From positions 1,139,001 to 1,203,000 of the forward strand of contig JABTUE010000001.1 in NCBI GenBank assembly GCA_015075515.1: a stretch of DNA of 64,000 nt. The letters run 5' to 3'. Made by a program: the position numbers and the translations under genes. Positions 3,767 to 13,719 of this stretch are shown here, in pieces. The notes beneath the pieces were generated by a model. It was given only the letters and a program-made list of their open reading frames with translations. It was not told the DNA's origin and did not search any database. Position 1 is the first letter of the stretch. Every line of letters starts with the position of its first letter. Source of the DNA: Planctomycetota bacterium (GTDB lineage: Bacteria; Planctomycetota; UBA8742; UBA2392).

Positions 3767-3950
3767 GTTGACAACATGAGATTGCCGGCTCCTGTGGGCT
3801 GTCTCCTTTTAAGGGGGGGAGATGGTTTTGGAGCCGGAACGCGCAGTCGGGCGGGATCGTGACTTCGGTTTTTAAGGGGGACTGAAGTTATCTCTGTTCG
3901 CCTGCGCACCTTATGAGCGGGCCGTCCTTTCGGGCGGCCCGCTGTCGTTT
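3767..3950 (+). ncRNA. Candidate structured small RNA with twin TTTTAAGGGGG elements
   Basis: This noncoding stretch lies between two minus-strand genes and has a plus-strand promoter-like element and a terminator. Two hairpins are visible. The first pairs CCGGCTCC (3784-3791) with GGAGCCGG (3830-3837), with an inner TCTCC/GGAGA stem. The second pairs ACTTCGGT with ACTGAAGT (about 3861-3889, one G-U). The apical parts of both carry the same TTTTAAGGGGG sequence. A strong GC hairpin at 3916-3943 ends the unit. The layout suggests a small regulatory RNA of about 180 nt with two identical exposed sites. It matches no RNA family I recognise (not tmRNA, SRP, RNase P or an evident 6S RNA). Confidence 0.45.
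3916..3943. terminator. GC-rich intrinsic terminator hairpin
   Basis: AGCGGGCCGTCC pairs with GGGCGGCCCGCT around a TTTC loop, with one G-U pair. On the plus strand it is followed by GTCGTTT and would end the candidate small RNA. On the minus strand it lies just past the stop of the coiled-coil gene, so it may work in both directions. Confidence 0.6.
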
Positions 3951-4926
3951 ACGCCGTGACCGTGTAGTCGCGCAGATCGCGCGACAGCGCCCGCAGGTAC
4001 ATCGCCAGCACAAACCCCACACATTGCGCGCCGGGGGATTCCTTCTTCAGTTCAAAGCGCAGACCCAGGGTACGCCCGGCGTCGTCATCCAGAGTGATCA
4101 GCAGCTCGCCCCAGTCGCCCTCGCCGGCCCGCACCCGGATGTTCCGGCGCTGGCCCCGCGAGTATTCGGGGTTGGTTGCGTGGCTGAAGTAACGGTCCAG
4201 AAACTCGCGGTCCAGTTTGGCGAAAAAATCCGAAACAATCTCCGCGTGGCCGTGCTGGCTCCAGTTCACGTTCAGCGCGCCGGTGTTCTTCACCCAGTGC
4301 TTGAGCTGGTCCTCCAGCCGGTTGGCCACTACCTCGGTTTTGCGCACGTTGCTGCGCGTCAACAGCATGGTGCGGGCGCGCTGTTCGTGGCTGCGCCTTT
4401 GCGTGGCTTCGATCTCGGCACGCAGGCGGTAAAGCTCCCTGCCCTGTTCCTGCACCTGCTGTTTCAGGGCGTCACGCTGGGCGTCCACCTCTGCCAGCAG
4501 CTCTTCGGCGGCCTGCAACTCGCCCTGCAACTGGCCCAGTTCCTGGTCGTGGACGCCCAGTTCGCTTTCGTGGCGGCCCAGCTCGCGGGCCTTGTCCGCC
4601 AGTTCCTGCGCGCTGGCCAGCGCGATTGTCACACCCGCGTCGCCCCTGGCGCCGATGGCGCCAAGACCCTCCAACAGACGCCCGCGTTCGGCCAGGGCCT
4701 TGTCACGCTGGGCCTGCACCGCCGCAATGCGCGCCTTCAGCTCCTGCAGCACCTCCGCCTGGGCCTGGCGCGTGGCGTCCAGTTCCGCAATATCCGGCGC
4801 CGCCTGCGGCCCGGCCGCGGCCTTGCGCCCCCGGGCCGTCTGCCACGCCCGGCCGATCCAGATGCCGGCGGCAACACCCAGGCCGATCACGCTCCCGCGC
4901 ACAATCGTTTCCACAATGTCAGCCAT
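3949..4926 (-). CDS. Membrane-anchored coiled-coil protein
   Basis: This 325-residue protein has a short N-terminal hydrophobic segment (about residues 9-27, with GLGVAAGIWIG), a charged linker, and a long Ala/Glu/Gln-rich coiled coil from about 45 to 175. A globular C-terminal domain of about 140 residues follows and ends near YLRALSRDLRDYTV. The N-terminal anchor suggests attachment to the inner membrane with the coiled coil in the cytoplasm. It is divergently arranged with the MamK-like actin gene (160 bases between starts), so a structural partnership with that filament is a reasonable guess. No named family was recognised. Confidence 0.75.
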   Translation of the reverse strand: MADIVETIVRGSVIGLGVAAGIWIGRAWQTARGRKAAAGPQAAPDIAELDATRQAQAEVLQELKARIAAVQAQRDKALAERGRLLEGLGAIGARGDAGVTIALASAQELADKARELGRHESELGVHDQELGQLQGELQAAEELLAEVDAQRDALKQQVQEQGRELYRLRAEIEATQRRSHEQRARTMLLTRSNVRKTEVVANRLEDQLKHWVKNTGALNVNWSQHGHAEIVSDFFAKLDREFLDRYFSHATNPEYSRGQRRNIRVRAGEGDWGELLITLDDDAGRTLGLRFELKKESPGAQCVGFVLAMYLRALSRDLRDYTVTA

Positions 4927-5085
4927 GGCCGCAATCTACCCCTGCTCTACGCGCCCGCCATACCGCAAGCGCCCGGCGCCAGCGGCACGGGTGTCTAGCC
5001 GGAACACACTGCGTGGCAGGCCAGCCTTTTCCCAAAGTTGCCGCCACGCCCGTGCCGATTCTGTTGCATCGGCCCGGAGACCGCC

Positions 5086-6159
5086 ATGCTGCCCAACGCC
5101 AACGCCCCCCAATCCAAGCCCGAAGCCGGCGTACTGTTCGTCGGCATTGACCTTGGCACCAGCCACACCGCCATTGCCGCCAGCAACGGCAACCGTTGTT
5201 CCATTGACAGCATCGTGGCCTACCCGCGCGACGTGATTTCGCAGAAGGCGCTGGGCAAGGACAAGCTGTTCGGCGCCGAGGCCTGGCGTCACAAGCATGC
5301 CTGTGACGTGTACCGCCCGATGCAGAAGGGCGACGTGAAGTACGCCGAACTGGACGGCGCGCTTAACCGCGACCCGGCCCGCCAGCAGCAGGCCGTGCGC
5401 GATCTGATGCAGCACGTGCTGCAACTGGCCAAACCCCGCCCCGACGACCTGGTGTACGCCGTGATCGGCGCCCCCGCCCAGGCCAGCATCCACAGCCAGA
5501 AGGCGCTGCTGGATGCCGCCCGCGGCGTGCTGGACTGCGTGATGATCTGCAGCGAACCCTTTGCCGTGGCCTACGGCCTGCAATTTCTGACCGACACGCT
5601 GGTGATTGACATCGGCGCCGGCACCACCGACCTGTGCCGCATGCACGGCAGTCTGCCCGCCCCCGAAGACCAGATCACCGTCAGCGCCGCCGGCGACGCT
5701 GTGGACCGCAAGCTGTTTGAACTGCTCAAGGCCGCGTACCCCGAGGCCAGCTTCACCGTCAACATGGTCAAGGGGTTCAAGGAAAAGTTTGCCGCCCTGG
5801 CCAAGGTGGACGAACCCGTCCGGGTGACCTTGCCTGTGCGCGGCGTGCCCCGCGAGTTCGACATTACCGCCCAGGTGCGCCAAGCCGTGGAAAGCATCGT
5901 GCCCGAGATTGTGGGCAGCCTGCACCAGTTGATTGGCGACTACGACCCCGAGTTTCAGGCCGCCATGCGCAACAACGTGCTGCTGGCCGGCGGCGGCAGC
6001 CAGATCATCGGCCTGGACAAGGCGATTGAACGCAAGCTCAACGAACTGGGAGGCGGCCGCGTGACGCGCGTGCAGGAACCGGCGTTTGCCGGGGCCAACG
6101 GCGCGCTGCACCTGGCCCAGGACATGCCCGCCGAGTTCTGGCAGCAGCTTGACGCCTGA
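5086..6159 (+). CDS. MamK-like bacterial actin
   Basis: This 357-residue protein belongs to the actin/Hsp70 ATPase superfamily. Phosphate-1 motif GIDLGTSHT lies at residues 20-28, phosphate-2 DIGAGTTD at 175-182 and the adenosine-binding LAGGGSQIIGL near 300-310. Beyond the superfamily motifs, stretches such as IDLGTSHTA, YPRDVI, SEPFAVAYGL, GPAPEDQ-like PAPEDQIT and the C-terminal PAEFWQQL match magnetosome MamK proteins as I remember them, rather than MreB, ParM or FtsA. MamK forms cytoplasmic filaments that position magnetosomes. No other mam gene is visible, so this may be a MamK homologue used for another task. The ATG at 5086 has a GGAG site at 5076-5079; a longer upstream frame is unlikely. 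A terminator follows. Confidence 0.85.
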   Translation: MLPNANAPQSKPEAGVLFVGIDLGTSHTAIAASNGNRCSIDSIVAYPRDVISQKALGKDKLFGAEAWRHKHACDVYRPMQKGDVKYAELDGALNRDPARQQQAVRDLMQHVLQLAKPRPDDLVYAVIGAPAQASIHSQKALLDAARGVLDCVMICSEPFAVAYGLQFLTDTLVIDIGAGTTDLCRMHGSLPAPEDQITVSAAGDAVDRKLFELLKAAYPEASFTVNMVKGFKEKFAALAKVDEPVRVTLPVRGVPREFDITAQVRQAVESIVPEIVGSLHQLIGDYDPEFQAAMRNNVLLAGGGSQIIGLDKAIERKLNELGGGRVTRVQEPAFAGANGALHLAQDMPAEFWQQLDA

Positions 6160-6321: not shown

Positions 6322-7553
6322 ATGAGAATCCTTTGCCAGGGGGCGATTGCGCTGGGCTGATCCTGGCTTGGTTGCCCCAGGCCGAGGCCCAAAGTACTTT
6401 GACACGTTGCTGGACGCATTTTACCTGTACGCGGGGCCGCCGGCGACACTGGCGCCCAAAACCCAGGCGACCATGGGCCTGCAACTGAACGCCTTTCACG
6501 CCGCCTGTGTCAGCGCGGGGATTTCCAACCCGTCGGATACCAACTACTACGCCAGCAACGGCATCAACCCTGATCCGGCTGGGGTACAGGAACGCTAAGC
6601 CCGGGCAGCGGTGACCCGGACAACTCGATTCTGATTGCCACCGGCGGCACTGGCGCCAATGCCACCGGCACCTGTGATCGCGACTATCGCGGCGTGGACG
6701 TCAAAGGCGCAACGGATCCAAGTCAACTTCGCCAGCGGCGCCGGCGGCTCGGCCAGTGCCGACAACCAGGGCGGCAACACCGGCCACGCCGAGGGCCTGG
6801 GGCGGCAACGGTCGGATTCACGCTGGTGGCTTTGCCTATGCGGAATGCGTGCCTGGCAGCGCCCATGCCTATGGTGGTACCGCGTTCAACGGTGTCGGCG
6901 GCGCGGCCGATGCCTACGGCTACGACGTGGCGTATGCCTATGGCGGTGATACCACCGGCGCCCTGGCCGAAGAGCGGATCAGCCGCAGGCGGCGCAGTGG
7001 GTGGAACGCATACGCGTTTGCCACCTCGGGTGATGCCACCGCAACCGGCGGAAATGGGGTAAGCGCCGGAGGCGAAGCCCGCGCCGGGGGCGATGCAAGC
7101 AATCCCAGCATCGGCGCAGGCGGCGGCGACGCCACAGCCTACTCCAGCCACGCAAACGCGGAGGCCTACGGCGGTGTAGGTGCTGGCGCGGGCGTCGGCG
7201 GCTCGGCCTATGCCGAGGCCGACACGTCTACAGGTATCAGCGCAAGGGCATACGGCGGTGTCGGCGCGACCGGTGGATTCGCGTTTGCCAAAGCACGCCA
7301 AAATGCCCGTGCCTATGGCGGCAACGCCAGCAATGGCTCCAACGGGGATGGCGGGAACGCAACGGCGTACACCGAGATTGGTGACACGACTGGCCAAGGC
7401 TGGGAAGCCTGGGCGATTTGTGGCGACGGGGATGGGGGAGGAGAAGGTGGCAAAAATGCGCTGGCTTGGGGTGGCACGGGAGTAACAGCGTACTACACGT
7501 TGCCTTGGTCAGCGGGCAATCCAACCAAAGGGGCGGAGCAGAAAGCCAGGTAA
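6322..7553 (+). pseudogene. Gly/Ala-rich secreted protein gene broken by several frameshifts
   Basis: A gene begins at ATG 6322 behind an AGGAG site (6311-6315), but its reading frame changes repeatedly. The signal peptide starts in frame 1 (MRILCQGAIA) and continues in frame 3 (GLILAWLPQAEAQ). Frame 2 follows (YFDTLLDAFYLYAG), then frame 1 (NSILIATGGTGANATG), frame 2 (QVNFASGAGGSASADNQGG) and frame 3 from about 6800. There is another excursion into frame 1 near 6970-7000. After that, frame 3 is clean to TAA at 7551-7553. The mature part is a low-complexity Gly/Ala/Tyr repeat with AYGG units. Every segment still reads as sensible protein, which points to indel sequencing errors or very recent decay. 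The stop overlaps the region just before the next gene's start. Confidence 0.6.
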
Positions 7554-7567
7554 TGGAGACTCCGCCG

Positions 7568-9667
7568 ATGCTTCGTCTATTCTCAACGCTCTTGCTCTTG
7601 GTCGCCGCCAGCCCGCTGGTGGCAACCGCCCTGCATGTTTCTGCGGCGACCGGGTCATCGGTCAACGTGCCGCACTACTACACGGGAAACGGCAACGGTT
7701 TCCTTATGGGCGAATTTTCTGTCTCTAATCCCCACACCACAGGGCTGGTGCTTCACAGCATTACAACAACCGCACTTGGCAGCGGAGATGATTCCACCGG
7801 CTTTTCCGAAATCGGCCTGTACGTGGACGCGAACAACAACGCGGGTTTCGAGTTTGGCATTGATCGGCGATACGGTCAGGCCTACGTGGCCTATCCTGCC
7901 GACAATGGAAGCCTGACCTTTTCTGAGGCTCTGGCTTTCTCGCCCGGAGAGACCAAACGGTTTCTGATCGTGGGCAAGCTGGGAGGTGCAGCACCCCCGG
8001 CCTACAACAATGCCTTTCACACCATCGTTCAGTCCATTGACGCAACGGGCGGCATGCCGACGGGCGTACCCACAACGTTCATTCGGGGAGCCGCCGTAAT
8101 CAACGTGCCGACCCCGCTGCGCCTGGAATACAACGTGACCGGCAGCGCGCCTCCGTACACATACACATTTCGCTTGGTTCTCGACAATCACGATGGCTCA
8201 TGGGTTCCAGGGCAGGAGTGGAGCAGCATCGTCTTCGGGCAAGCGGCATTCGAAGCGGGTGGCACGACCCCCTTTGCCGGGTGGACTGGCAATGCAGCCA
8301 GCCTGCCGGTCGGGCCGTTCACGATCTTCAGTTGGGCCACCATGTCCGTCGGAGGTGTGAGTTACAACGGACCAGGTTTGGTCGACAACGTCTCCCCGAC
8401 AGATTACTGGATGCCATCGGCTGTCGGTGACTATCTGACATGGTCGGGAACTGTGGGGACATTTCTCGACGAAGGCCAGATGTCCTGGAGTATGCATAGG
8501 TTTGGTGGTCCAACTGTTGCAGGCTCCGCAAACATCGAACCAGCTTACCGGGTCGGGGATTACATCCGTGTGGTGGCTGTGCCTGCGGCCGTTGTGAGGC
8601 CGGGGCCGCTTGAGACTGGCTCGGGCGCCGGGTTTCTTGTGGGCGCGTTTGATGTGATTGCCCACAGCAATGCCGCGACCTTGAGCAGCTTGACCTTGGC
8701 TGCTTTGGGCACGGGTGACGATTCTGCCGCATACTCGGACATTCGCCTTTACGTGGACGCCAACGGTAACGGGGCTTTTGACCCCGGTGTGGACACGCCC
8801 TTTGGCGCGTCGTTCACGGCCTTTGGGGCCGATGACGGCTCGCTGACGTTCAACGACACGCTGAATCTCGCCATCAACGAAACCAAACGCCTGCTGGTGG
8901 TCTGCAAGCTGAACGGGTCAACACCCGCCAGTTACGGCCAGACCTTTGCCGCGCGAATCACGGCGATTTCCGGCACAGGCCAGAACCACTCCGGCCTGCC
9001 CACGGCGGCGGTTGCGGGCATCCGCATCCACGCCCCGGCGATTGGCGTGACCAGCACGGGCATGAAACTTTCGGCCTTTGCCAACGGTGTGGGGCCGGGT
9101 GGCCTGGGCCTGAGCGTGGCCGATTTCGTGCTGGCCAACAACGCGGTGGGCGCGGCGGCACTGGGTTCGATCACCGTCGCCGCGGCGGGCTCGCTGTTTG
9201 ACCAAAGCGCGTTTTCCTTCGTCGCGCTGTACGAGGACAGCAACGCCAACGGAACCTTTGACGCCGCCGACACGTTGTACGGCACGGCCGCGGCGGCTTT
9301 TCCCGGCGATGACGGCAGCCTGGCGTTTAGCGGGGTGATGAACTTTGCCCCGGGCCAGTCACGCCGCCTGTTTCTGGTGGTGAAGCTCAACGGCGGCGCC
9401 GCCGTCGGCGACGACTTCTGGGCGCGGGTGACGGCGTTGGGTGTCGGCGGCGGCGTTGAAGTGGCCGCCACCGGCGCGCTGGTTCACGGCCTGACGATTG
9501 TGCCGGGCAGCGACCCCGCCGGCCTTCAGCCCGGCGGCGGCAAGAACGGCGACAAGGGCAGCGGCGGCTGTGTTGCCGCCGCCCCCGGCGCCGCGGCCGC
9601 GGTCTTGGCGGCTCTGGCCGTCTGGGCCATCACCCGCCGCCGTCGGCAGAATTTCCGCCTGCCGTAG
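7568..9667 (+). CDS. Secreted surface protein with repeated domains and C-terminal sorting tail
   Basis: The likely start is ATG 7568, behind a GGAG at 7556-7559, giving 699 residues; an in-frame ATG at 7553 is the alternative. A signal peptide (MLRLFSTLLLLVAAS) is followed by three related modules of about 130-150 residues. Each contains GSGDDS-like or LGTGDDS turns, LYVDANxNGxFDxGxD (a dockerin/EF-hand-like Asp loop), DDGSLTF and an ETKRxLxVxKLxG strand. The C-terminus has GGGKNGDKGSGGC, one hydrophobic helix and an RRRR cluster. This layout is typical of GlyGly-CTERM, Synergist-CTERM or MYXO-CTERM sorting signals, in which a Gly/Cys motif is processed and the protein is held on the cell surface. 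The binding partner is unknown. Confidence 0.75.
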   Translation: MLRLFSTLLLLVAASPLVATALHVSAATGSSVNVPHYYTGNGNGFLMGEFSVSNPHTTGLVLHSITTTALGSGDDSTGFSEIGLYVDANNNAGFEFGIDRRYGQAYVAYPADNGSLTFSEALAFSPGETKRFLIVGKLGGAAPPAYNNAFHTIVQSIDATGGMPTGVPTTFIRGAAVINVPTPLRLEYNVTGSAPPYTYTFRLVLDNHDGSWVPGQEWSSIVFGQAAFEAGGTTPFAGWTGNAASLPVGPFTIFSWATMSVGGVSYNGPGLVDNVSPTDYWMPSAVGDYLTWSGTVGTFLDEGQMSWSMHRFGGPTVAGSANIEPAYRVGDYIRVVAVPAAVVRPGPLETGSGAGFLVGAFDVIAHSNAATLSSLTLAALGTGDDSAAYSDIRLYVDANGNGAFDPGVDTPFGASFTAFGADDGSLTFNDTLNLAINETKRLLVVCKLNGSTPASYGQTFAARITAISGTGQNHSGLPTAAVAGIRIHAPAIGVTSTGMKLSAFANGVGPGGLGLSVADFVLANNAVGAAALGSITVAAAGSLFDQSAFSFVALYEDSNANGTFDAADTLYGTAAAAFPGDDGSLAFSGVMNFAPGQSRRLFLVVKLNGGAAVGDDFWARVTALGVGGGVEVAATGALVHGLTIVPGSDPAGLQPGGGKNGDKGSGGCVAAAPGAAAAVLAALAVWAITRRRRQNFRLP

Positions 9668-9736
9668 TTCACGACAGCGGGTTTGTCGCGGCCTTGGCGC
9701 TCGACAATCGGGCGGCGTTGCACCACAATTCGGCCC

Positions 9737-11170
9737 ATGCCCACCAGCATCGAAACGCAGCTTACCGCTGACGGCTTTCCGGTCTTTGCCCACGAGGTGG
9801 TTGACCACGCCGCGCGTGACGCCGCGTGGCTGCTGGTGGCCGAGGGCAAAGCCGCGCTGCGCTGCGCGCTGGTTACCGGCAGCCACGGCGCGGGCAAGAC
9901 CACGCAACTCAAACTGATGGATTATCACCTGCGCGAGGCCGGGGCATCAGTGAGCTGGTTTTCGGCCTGGGCCCACAAGGAAGACGTGGATCCGTTTGCC
10001 AGCATTCTGTTCGCGCTGTGGGACCAGCTTGACATCCGCGGCAACGCCACGGCACCGGCGCCGGAACAGGTCGAGGCCGTGATCGGCGCGGCGATGCGGC
10101 GCAAGGGCTACCCGGCCAACACCACCAACATCCGCGCCCGTGAAGGCAGCGAGGGCGCCGAACGCGCCATGCTGACGGCCGTGGACCTGATTTCGCAGCT
10201 TGTGGTCCGCAGCCAGCCGATCGCCGAACTGGCGCACGCCTCGCGCCTGATGACCGACGCCGCCAGCCTGAGCGAAGACCGTTTCCAGCAGCAGAAGCTG
10301 CTGGAACGTTCGCGCAGCTACCTGTTCCCGCGCCGGCTGCGCGAACAGATGGACGCGATTGTGGCGCACCTGCGCGCCCGCACCAAAGACCCGCACCTGC
10401 CGGCGTTTCTGTTCGTGGACGACCTTGACCGCTGCCCGCCGAAACTCGGGCTTGCGCTGCTGGAGGCGCTGGGACGGTTCTTTTCGGTGCCGGGGCTGGT
10501 GATTGTCGTGGCTCTGGACGAGGCCGTGGCGCGGGCGTGGGTCACCAGCGCCTATGAGGGCAACGTGGACGGCCGGGCGTACATAGACAAGCTGTTCGAC
10601 CGCCGCATTCTGGGCGTCGAGGAACGCGCGCGCGTGATCTGGGCCCAGATTCTGGGTGTCGAATGGCGCATGGCCGAATGGGACATGCTGGTCGGCAAAG
10701 CTCACCCCGAAATGGCCGACCGCGCCGTAATCTCGGCCACGCGCCTGTTGCGCATTCACGGCGGCAGCGATATCCGCAAGGTGCGGCGCTCGCTGGCCGA
10801 GGTGCGCACGATCATCAGCGACGCGCGCGAGTTCGTCAGCAAGGTCACGCTGATGCCCGATGTGGTGCGGCTGGGCGTGCTGTGCGGCTATCTGGTACGC
10901 GAGCGCCACCCGCGGATTGTGGAACGCATCGCCGATATGCGCCTGCTGGACGCGCGCGTCGAAGTAATCGAAGAAATGATGTCCATCGCGCCGGCCTGGG
11001 CCACCGAAGACAGCGACGACGCTCTGGCGTGGTTGCGCGAGTTTCTGGAACTGAAGCCCGACGACGAGCGCGAGATCGGCTACATTCTGGACATCCGCCA
11101 CTTTCTGCCCACCGACGTGCTGATGAAAGTGGGTGCCCAACTGGTGCTGCTGGGCATGGGCCTAGGGTAG
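9737..11170 (+). CDS. KAP-family P-loop NTPase
   Basis: This 477-residue protein has Walker A GSHGAGKTT at residues 48-56 and Walker B LFVDDLDRC at about 225-233, the DDLDR form typical of KAP NTPases. VVALDEAVARAWV follows as a sensor-like segment. The family is often membrane-linked or found with defence and signalling genes, but no membrane span stands out here. ATG 9737 was chosen because the upstream extension is Arg-rich and implausible. Its last nine bases overlap the convergent HEAT-protein gene. Function cannot be assigned more precisely. Confidence 0.8.
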   Translation: MPTSIETQLTADGFPVFAHEVVDHAARDAAWLLVAEGKAALRCALVTGSHGAGKTTQLKLMDYHLREAGASVSWFSAWAHKEDVDPFASILFALWDQLDIRGNATAPAPEQVEAVIGAAMRRKGYPANTTNIRAREGSEGAERAMLTAVDLISQLVVRSQPIAELAHASRLMTDAASLSEDRFQQQKLLERSRSYLFPRRLREQMDAIVAHLRARTKDPHLPAFLFVDDLDRCPPKLGLALLEALGRFFSVPGLVIVVALDEAVARAWVTSAYEGNVDGRAYIDKLFDRRILGVEERARVIWAQILGVEWRMAEWDMLVGKAHPEMADRAVISATRLLRIHGGSDIRKVRRSLAEVRTIISDAREFVSKVTLMPDVVRLGVLCGYLVRERHPRIVERIADMRLLDARVEVIEEMMSIAPAWATEDSDDALAWLREFLELKPDDEREIGYILDIRHFLPTDVLMKVGAQLVLLGMGLG

Positions 11171-13522
11171 ATAGCCGTCCTGCTTGAGCCGCGTCTTGAG
11201 GCCGTCCAGCGCGTTGGCAAACGCCGCGGCATCCAGGCCCTTGAGCGCCACGCGGTCGTATTTTTCGGGATGGGCCTTGCGCAGCACCGCCAGCAGCATC
11301 TCGGCCATGGCGTCGCGGTTGTCGGACTGAGCGGTGTTGGCGGCCAGTTTTTCCAGCGCCGCCAGCACGTACTGGTCGCGCAGCGGGCCGTTGGCGTGCT
11401 CTTCCAGTTTGCGTCGTTCTTCGTCGTCGAGACCTTGACGGATGCCGCGTTCGACGCGCGCGCCCAGATCGGCGCGCACCGACGCGTTGACGGTGGCCCG
11501 GAACTGGGCAAAGGCCGGGCTTTCGCTTTCGGCGCGGGTCAAGGCCGAGGCCAGTTCAACGGCCAGGCGACCCACGCGCAGGGGTTTGACCGCGAGCTTG
11601 GGTTCCAGGGCCTTGGCGATAATCGAAACGCGCGATGGCCGCAGCACCAGAATATAGCCCAGGGCGTCTTTTTCGCCGTAGTCGCAGTCCATTAACTGCT
11701 GGATCAGGTCCACGTGTTCCTGGGGCGTCGAATACAGCCGCGCCAGGAGTCCGCGCAGGGCGTCGCGCAGGTTGCGGCGCTGTTCCGGCGTGGGCGGCAG
11801 CACGGCGTCCACGCTGCGGGCGCGCTCGATCAGCCGGCCCTTGATAGTTTCAACCGGCTCGGGGGCGAGTTCCAGGGCTTCGCACAGGCCCAGCAGGTTG
11901 ACCAGCATGGCTTCGGCGCCGGGGTCGGCCAGCAGGCGGGCGTAGAGCGCGGCCAGTTGTTCGCTTTCGGGCGGGGTGGTCAGCAGGCTGCGCAGGGGCT
12001 CGCGCGCGCTGGGAACGTCCAGTGCCTGGCGCAGCGCGGTAAGCGCGCTGTTGCTGGCGCCGCTTTCGGTGCGGATCAGGCGGAACAGGGCGTTGACACA
12101 GGCGGAAACGTCCACACGGCGCAGACGCGCCAGAAACTGCAGGGTGTCGTTGGCGCGGGTGGCCAGATCCACAAACCGCTTGCGGGCCGGGGCTTCCAGC
12201 GTGCCTGAAAGCTGGTCGGCCAGCAGATTCAACAGGCGCGCGAGCTGGGCCAGTAAAAGGTCGCGGTTGGGCCCGGTGTCGTCGGTTTCCAGCACATAGC
12301 GCACCTGCCCGATTGCGGTTTCCAGCAGGGCCCCGCTGCGCGTGGCAGCAACATCAATTTCGGCCGACAGCACCCGCGCCAGGCGCGGCGCGGCGATCGG
12401 CGAGTTCAGGCCCTTGACCAGTTCCAGCTTCAGATCGGCGGAAATACCGTTGCTTTCCAGGGCGCGGTCAATCTGGGCAAAGGCCAGTGCTACCTTGGCC
12501 GCGCCGGCGGGGCCGGACCCGCGCGGTTCGGCCAGCGCCACGGCGCAGGCGCGGCGCACGCTGTCGGCGGCGGCGACGTCGTTCAGCACACCGCCCAAAG
12601 CTTCAATCGGCGCGCGGGCGCCGTCTTCGTCCAGACTGGGCAATAACGCGCCCAGAAGGCGTGCGGCTTCTTCGCGCACCACGTTGTACTTGCTGTTGCG
12701 AAGATGGTTGACCAGCGCCGCCGCGTCCTGGGCATCGCGGGTGCGCATGGTCTGCAGCAGCGTGGCGTGCAGTTCGCGCTCGAGTTCGGCGGCGCGGGTT
12801 TCGGCGGCGCGCCGGGCCTCGGTTTCGCGGTCGCCGATTTCGGCCATCAGGTCGGTTTCCGACTTGGCGCCCAGCCAGACCTTCCATTCCGCCGGGGTTT
12901 CCAGATTCAACAGCGCCAGTCGCTTCAGCGCGGCAATGCCCGCGCCCTGCAGTTCAGAACCGTTGTCATGCACCAGCCCCACCAGGTGCGGAATCACGCG
13001 CGCCGCCCCCCGCAGCCCGCCGATCCGCGAGCCCGCTACGGCAACAGCCGTTGCCCGATCTGTGGCGTTTTCACCGGCCAGCAGCTTTACCAGCGCGTCG
13101 GCCCCGGCCAGCCCGTAAGCGCGCAGGGCCTGAAGCGCCGGCCGCGCCGAATCGCCGGCCTCGCCCGCAGCCGTGATCAGCACCGGCAAAAAACATTCGC
13201 GCCGGGCGTGTTCGTGGTCGCGGATCCAGGCCGCCAGGTCGCCAAACGTGTCTTCGGGTTTCTTGTTGCGCAGAATGGACAGCAGCGGATCCGGGTCGCG
13301 TTTGAGTGTTTCGGCGCGGCGCAGCGTGGCTTCAAACGCGGACTGGCGCGCGGCCTTGTCGGCCGCGGCTTCGATAAGCCGGATTTCCTCGGCAAAGGGG
13401 TCACCCTCAAGCTGCAGGCTTGCAGGTGATTTTTCCGCGTTGTCCTGTGCCGGCAGCATGCCGGCCCAACCCGCCATCAAGCCGAGGAGCACCAGCGCCC
13501 AAAGGGGCACAGCGCCTCGCAT
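11162..13522 (-). CDS. Secreted HEAT-repeat-like protein
   Basis: This 786-residue protein starts at ATG 13522 with a signal peptide (MRGAVPLWALVLLGLMAGWAGMLPAQ). The rest is almost entirely alpha-helical with Ala/Leu/Arg-rich helix pairs, e.g. ARPALQALRAYGLAGADALVKLL and VIPHLVGLVHDNG, the pattern of HEAT/Armadillo solenoids. It probably forms a long curved scaffold in the periplasm or on the cell surface. No catalytic motif is seen. It converges with the KAP gene with a short tail overlap. No named family was recognised. Confidence 0.7.
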   Translation of the reverse strand: MRGAVPLWALVLLGLMAGWAGMLPAQDNAEKSPASLQLEGDPFAEEIRLIEAAADKAARQSAFEATLRRAETLKRDPDPLLSILRNKKPEDTFGDLAAWIRDHEHARRECFLPVLITAAGEAGDSARPALQALRAYGLAGADALVKLLAGENATDRATAVAVAGSRIGGLRGAARVIPHLVGLVHDNGSELQGAGIAALKRLALLNLETPAEWKVWLGAKSETDLMAEIGDRETEARRAAETRAAELERELHATLLQTMRTRDAQDAAALVNHLRNSKYNVVREEAARLLGALLPSLDEDGARAPIEALGGVLNDVAAADSVRRACAVALAEPRGSGPAGAAKVALAFAQIDRALESNGISADLKLELVKGLNSPIAAPRLARVLSAEIDVAATRSGALLETAIGQVRYVLETDDTGPNRDLLLAQLARLLNLLADQLSGTLEAPARKRFVDLATRANDTLQFLARLRRVDVSACVNALFRLIRTESGASNSALTALRQALDVPSAREPLRSLLTTPPESEQLAALYARLLADPGAEAMLVNLLGLCEALELAPEPVETIKGRLIERARSVDAVLPPTPEQRRNLRDALRGLLARLYSTPQEHVDLIQQLMDCDYGEKDALGYILVLRPSRVSIIAKALEPKLAVKPLRVGRLAVELASALTRAESESPAFAQFRATVNASVRADLGARVERGIRQGLDDEERRKLEEHANGPLRDQYVLAALEKLAANTAQSDNRDAMAEMLLAVLRKAHPEKYDRVALKGLDAAAFANALDGLKTRLKQDGYLP

Positions 13523-13719
13523 CGTGTCTGCCTTATTCGTGGGGAACCCGACCGCGATCCCCCGCCACCGACCCCGTGCATTAAACGGCAAAGCGACGCC
13601 GGATGCGAAACAATCTTTCGTGTGTTTTTCGGGCCAACGGCGTGCCAAACGCCGCCGGTTACCGCCGGGTATCCGGCCGGCCGTGGCCCTTGCGCCGGCG
13701 GCTGCTACAACAGGCACCC

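Follow-up and report, generated by a model that had tools for sequence, protein, structure and literature searches.

The window analysed here is a 64,000-nucleotide stretch of the planctomycete contig JABTUE010000001.1, in which an actin gene and a gene for a membrane-anchored coiled-coil protein are divergently transcribed (Table 1). The open reading frame of the actin spans positions 5038-6159 on the forward strand, and the ATG at which the family alignment begins is its likely start. Motifs DLGTS, DIGAGTTD and AGGGS are intact in the actin, and an alignment with 19 relatives showed that the nucleotide motifs are kept across all of them. The first strand begins after about 15 residues, and the disordered N-terminal extension of 30-50 residues that is typical of BeeR (PMC11929497) is absent. 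The coiled-coil protein has an N-terminal hydrophobic stretch (Kyte-Doolittle value of 1.64 at residue 4), a pair of long helices and, at its C-terminus, a small alpha/beta domain; a fold search with the protein returned nothing at E <= 0.001, and the C-terminal domain was without a confident match. A second copy of this domain, 60% identical, is located elsewhere in the genome (G000:C4:488319-488654, locus L046).

Table 1. Features of the actin locus and the candidate adaptor gene of the host genome (window positions unless a contig is named).
Feature	Coordinates	Strand	Basis or remark
MamK-family actin, non-magnetosomal planctomycete branch, 357 aa	5086-6159	+	NCBIfam score, PDB matches, model, presence in the family
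Membrane-anchored coiled-coil protein, 325 aa, family-specific	3949-4926	-	In 13/16 family genomes, unlinked in relatives
Intergenic stretch of 159 bp separating the divergent starts	4927-5085		Arrangement absent in relatives
Candidate adaptor ortholog (L195), 283 aa	G000 contig C3:490514-491365		N-terminal membrane segment(s), coiled coil, C-terminal helix

Three further genes of the window are of note. A 749-residue protein (7418-9667, +) starts with a signal-like segment, contains repeats of the motif DxNxNGxFxxGxD, matches GEVED below threshold and has at its C-terminus a membrane/basic tail that resembles a sorting signal. A KAP-family P-loop NTPase (9683-11170, +) is convergent with the gene for an 850-residue protein (11162-13717, -) that lacks a Pfam match and by eye resembles helical repeats.

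The actin belongs to the MamK family

MamK is known for organising magnetosomes. A first-pass annotation of the window had judged the actin to resemble MamK more than other bacterial actins, and profile and structure comparisons bear this out. The actin scored 407.4 bits (E 4e-122) against the NCBIfam MamK model NF040964, a marginal pass of the cut-off of 400, and it missed the cut-offs for BeeR (192 versus 530 bits) and MreB (72.8 versus 293 bits). Its top matches among solved chains in the PDB were the MamK filaments of Magnetospirillum (E ~1e-80), followed by BeeR (E 2e-33), and the fold of its AlphaFold model (pLDDT 88) matched MamK structures 5ljw and 5ljv first, BeeR fourth and MreB next.

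The actin is present in all 16 genomes of the host family at 75-94% identity, with no neighbouring gene conserved family-wide, and in 125 of the 342 Planctomycetota genomes sampled, which places it in 36 of about 87 families. Short pieces whose similarity to the actin is confined to its C-terminal part occur in genomes of relatives (G010:C15:212517-212582, G002:C31:21933-21998, G006:C8:2929-3096, G013:C89:40202-40369 and G011:C58:9702-9872). All five are 54-82% identical to the actin, the full gene lies within about 6 kb in three of the relatives, and the pieces are probably remnants of partial duplications.

Magnetosome genes and phylogeny

One possibility is that the actin is a magnetosome MamK whose magnetosome gene cluster was either lost or left out of the assembly. 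The narrow pass of the MamK cut-off and the 91.7% completeness of the genome leave some room for this reading, and magnetotactic Planctomycetota are on record (PMC12713370, PMC7449369). Nevertheless, the absence of mam genes remarked on in the first-pass annotation extends past the window. The magnetochrome domain (PF18509) was absent from the host genome in a search that was positive in three magnetotactic genomes (Magnetospirillum, a magnetococcus and a zetaproteobacterium), which was a repeat made with these genomes after the controls of a first round had stayed silent. The domain was also not found in 20 relatives in that first round, whose controls were silent, and the host genome has no match to MamQ at E <= 10. 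Moreover, retention of the actin in every genome of the family argues against a stranded magnetosome gene.

Phylogeny argues in the same direction. In a tree of 46 rows, MamK-type actins split from MreB at 100/100, with the window actin deep in a Planctomycetota group and bona fide magnetosome MamK in a 100/100 clade of its own; BeeR, which falls inside the MamK-type part, and the archaeal row have long branches and are placed unsurely. A constraint joining the family of the window actin to magnetosome MamK was rejected (AU p = 3.5e-5). In addition, both kinds of actin occur in one magnetotactic zetaproteobacterium (L145, genome G350), which has MamK-family actins at C2:21559-22566 and C40:21638-22639: one shares its contig with magnetochrome genes, and the other, on a different contig, adjoins a gene encoding the helix described below. 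A magnetosome role for the window actin is thus very improbable. Of the two outcomes that the first-pass annotation named as refuting its reading, a place outside the MamK clade applies to magnetosome MamK proper but not to the wider family, and a lack of conserved linkage between the two genes applies fully, as shown in the next section. The actin is a member of the MamK family in the wide sense rather than a magnetosome MamK proper.

The divergent coiled-coil gene is a chance neighbour

The divergent arrangement that drew attention to the locus is real at the window, but it is not conserved. Among the 13 family genomes that have both genes, the two are adjacent only in the window genome; in the 12 relatives they are on separate contigs in 11 and 283 kb apart in G014. 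Contig breaks do not account for the separation, since in a relative of the same genus both genes are well inside their contigs, the closer end being ~55 kb away for the actin and 18 kb away for the coiled-coil gene. We therefore rejected the divergent pair as a unit, the linkage being absent in relatives.

It could be argued that the coiled-coil protein is nonetheless the true partner of the actin and that linkage was merely lost in relatives. A membrane anchor followed by a long coiled coil would suit such a partner, as would the joint presence of the two genes in most genomes of the family (13 of 16). The coiled-coil protein, however, was not found in the three remaining family genomes, all of which keep the actin, or in any of 44 other planctomycetes, whereas the actin is phylum-wide; the genes are on separate contigs even within the genus, and the docking helix described below was looked for in the protein and is absent. 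Partnership is therefore improbable, and the filament-partner role that the first-pass annotation had suggested for the protein fails with it. The coiled-coil gene is a chance neighbour of the actin and no required part of its system.

A recurrent upstream partner in Planctomycetota

In distant planctomycetes, a different gene recurs directly upstream of the actin. The proteins it encodes are coiled-coil, signalling or membrane proteins that carry a helix of ~20 residues, which in many Planctomycetota stands at the end of a coiled-coil protein. The hallmark of the partners is a C-terminal module (A3) that ends in the helix, with the consensus K-K-x-L-M-x-x-I-F-x-A-N-L-x-L-Q/R, in which the Asn is invariant in all 21 seed sequences. 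The remainder of the protein is variable and contains GGDEF, receiver or no known domains.

Module and actin are closely associated. All 68 of the 342 Planctomycetota genomes with the A3 module are actin-positive, and the 22 module families all fall within the 36 actin families; the hypergeometric P is 3e-37 by genome (uncorrected) and ~2e-11 by family, both values ignoring finer phylogeny. Among 91 module copies, 67 have an actin within 2 kb, and 66 of these are upstream of it in the same orientation; the remaining 24 are unlinked yet confined to actin genomes. A point against a general link is that the A3 profile detected no module in 14 families out of the 36 with the actin, although one of the 14, the host family, has a diverged probable ortholog. 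The first-pass proposal that a coiled-coil partner helps to position some other compartment was a sensible idea applied to the wrong gene, the conserved neighbour elsewhere being a different coiled-coil gene.

A candidate adaptor in the host genome

The host genome gave no match to the A3 profile, and no helix-bearing adaptor is encoded next to its actin. From a borderline A3 match in a relative (G003) we arrived at a family of coiled-coil proteins with an N-terminal membrane anchor, which is present in 12 of the 13 host-family genomes searched and has the C-terminal consensus ARxGFLxAMLDANxxLRKQI (longer form ARxGFLxAMLDANKTLRKQIK). When these 12 proteins were scored with the helix matrix described below, the best window was the C-terminal helix in 11. 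The member from the host genome (Table 1) follows a RusA-like gene, as do, by eye, the protein of G003 and a related protein of G016, a genome of the same order. In the host copy the helix is aligned but has a weak matrix score, below 2.6, versus 5-15 for most orthologs. Because the gene is unlinked and its helix scores weakly, its role in the host genome rests on the orthology chain through G003 and G016, and we regard it with moderate confidence, from sequence, as the best candidate adaptor of this genome. The full-length profile A2 matched only the N-terminal part of another host protein, of 391 residues (G000:C1:760178-761353; L156:9179-10354), which was set aside as adaptor evidence since its domain also occurs in genomes that lack the actin.

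The helix at actin loci of other phyla

A 20-residue helix matrix trained on planctomycete partners only was used to score actin loci from other phyla. An actin-adjacent gene was the top scorer in 9 of 10 non-planctomycete loci, the top scores at L140 and L146 being unconvincing motif matches. The summed best score of the actin-adjacent genes over the 10 loci was 154.6, versus 18.4 +/- 13.4 for matrices with shuffled columns, which preserve composition and of which 0 of 2000 reached the observed value; the motif had been spotted by eye in several of the loci before the scoring. Every open reading frame scoring above 18.0 among 9171 was adjacent to such an actin, an additional copy at the locus concerned or a sequence retrieved by the partner search itself. 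At three magnetosome mamK loci, the adjacent gene was not the top scorer and the helix was absent. Second MamK copies in Magnetococcales (L255, G354:C28; L256, G349:C146) lie beside MamJ-like and FeoB-like GTPase genes by eye and have no helix, which marks them as the magnetosome type; they had been examined as extra out-of-sample cases.

The gene picked by the matrix was the one next to the actin in Zetaproteobacteria, Nitrospirota, Acidobacteriota, Omnitrophota and a methanogen. Clear cases are a zetaproteobacterial protein of 112 residues with one transmembrane segment, an Omnitrophota protein of 164 residues and, in Methanolobus, a 604-residue coiled-coil protein that ends in the helix (L149:5516-7330). 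The gene for this protein is on one side of the Methanolobus MamK-like actin, and genes that resemble those of chemotaxis (CheW-like by eye) are on the other. In Nitrospirota and Acidobacteriota the helix is carried by a membrane-anchored peptidoglycan amidase (Amidase_3), near the N-terminus and before the membrane segment, and is predicted to be on the cytosolic side of the membrane. These amidases provide the strongest hint that the helix meets the filament.

An alternative is that the helix is a self-assembly element or a cap for coiled coils, so that actin and adaptor would be linked in function without direct docking. The terminal position that the helix has in coiled-coil proteins from many Planctomycetota is what such a cap would predict. 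The same helix, however, stands beside actins on the N-terminus of membrane-anchored amidases and in small proteins with one transmembrane segment and no long coiled coil, and the composition-keeping shuffles fall short of its score. We consider this alternative rather unlikely, and prefer docking of the helix on the filament.

Proposed mechanism

We propose, with a probability of roughly 0.6, that the actin forms a general MamK-type filament that is coupled by the docking helix of adaptors to membrane or signalling cargo in a positioning system unrelated to magnetosomes. As family and fold suggest, the actin would form ATP-dependent filaments, and these may serve a positioning system that is common in Planctomycetota. 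Adaptors with an amphipathic helix of ~20 residues, usually close to one terminus, would tie the filament to its cargo by docking of the helix directly on the filament. In most lineages the gene of the proposed adaptor stands directly upstream of the actin, and in the host family this linkage appears to have been lost.

A different possibility is that the filament, in the manner of MreB, places peptidoglycan and envelope enzymes rather than a compartment. The Amidase_3 partners of Nitrospirota and Acidobacteriota favour a cell wall role, as does a CpsD-like ATPase (envelope polysaccharide type) encoded within about 1.2 kb at 11 of the 67 loci. Since partners elsewhere have GGDEF domains, receiver domains or nothing recognisable, envelope cargo would not be universal, and the host genome has its own MreB. 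A dedicated cell wall role therefore seems somewhat unlikely; that some of the cargo is envelope-related is plausible.

A MamK branch that is non-magnetic and phylum-wide, together with a predicted docking tag, makes the origin of MamK and its use outside magnetotaxis testable. It also follows that the NCBI MamK label alone does not imply a magnetotactic organism. Our search of the open-access literature turned up neither the adaptor nor the helix.

Comparison with known systems

Planctobacterial MamK has been mentioned previously (PMC7203096), and a MamK-related actin of non-magnetotactic bacteria has been described in BeeR of Verrucomicrobiota (PDB 8r2n; PMC11929497). BeeR resembles the window actin in this respect, but it is far more distant than MamK, at 26% identity, and the accessible part of the same report describes no partner for it. 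MreB shares the actin fold, and the amidase partners of some lineages suggest a common link to the envelope; the window actin, however, is only 27% identical to the MreB of its own genome and represents a separate gene and clade.

Networks of actin and coiled-coil proteins are known for magnetosomes (PMC12748827). In Solidesulfovibrio (formerly Desulfovibrio) magneticus RS-1, Mad28 and the coiled-coil proteins Mad20, Mad23, Mad25 and Mad26 show that MamK-like actins and coiled-coil proteins can position structures along the cell, as we suggest here, although this network is magnetosome-specific (PMC12748827, PMC12713370).

The closest likeness is to MamK itself (PDB 5jyg, 5ljv, 5ljw), with which the window actin shares sequence family, fold (39% identity in the fold alignment) and nucleotide motifs, so that it probably forms filaments. 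It differs from MamK in belonging to a separate clade and to a genome without magnetosome genes, and in that the conserved actin neighbours in its relatives are helix-bearing adaptors rather than MamE, MamJ or MamL. More tentatively, at a little short of even odds, MamK-type actins may form a general-purpose cytoskeleton for positioning that is widespread among bacteria and also present in at least one archaeon, with cargo set by a portable docking helix on otherwise unrelated membrane, signalling and amidase proteins, and magnetosome MamK may be a specialised branch in which the helix was replaced by MamJ-like linkers.
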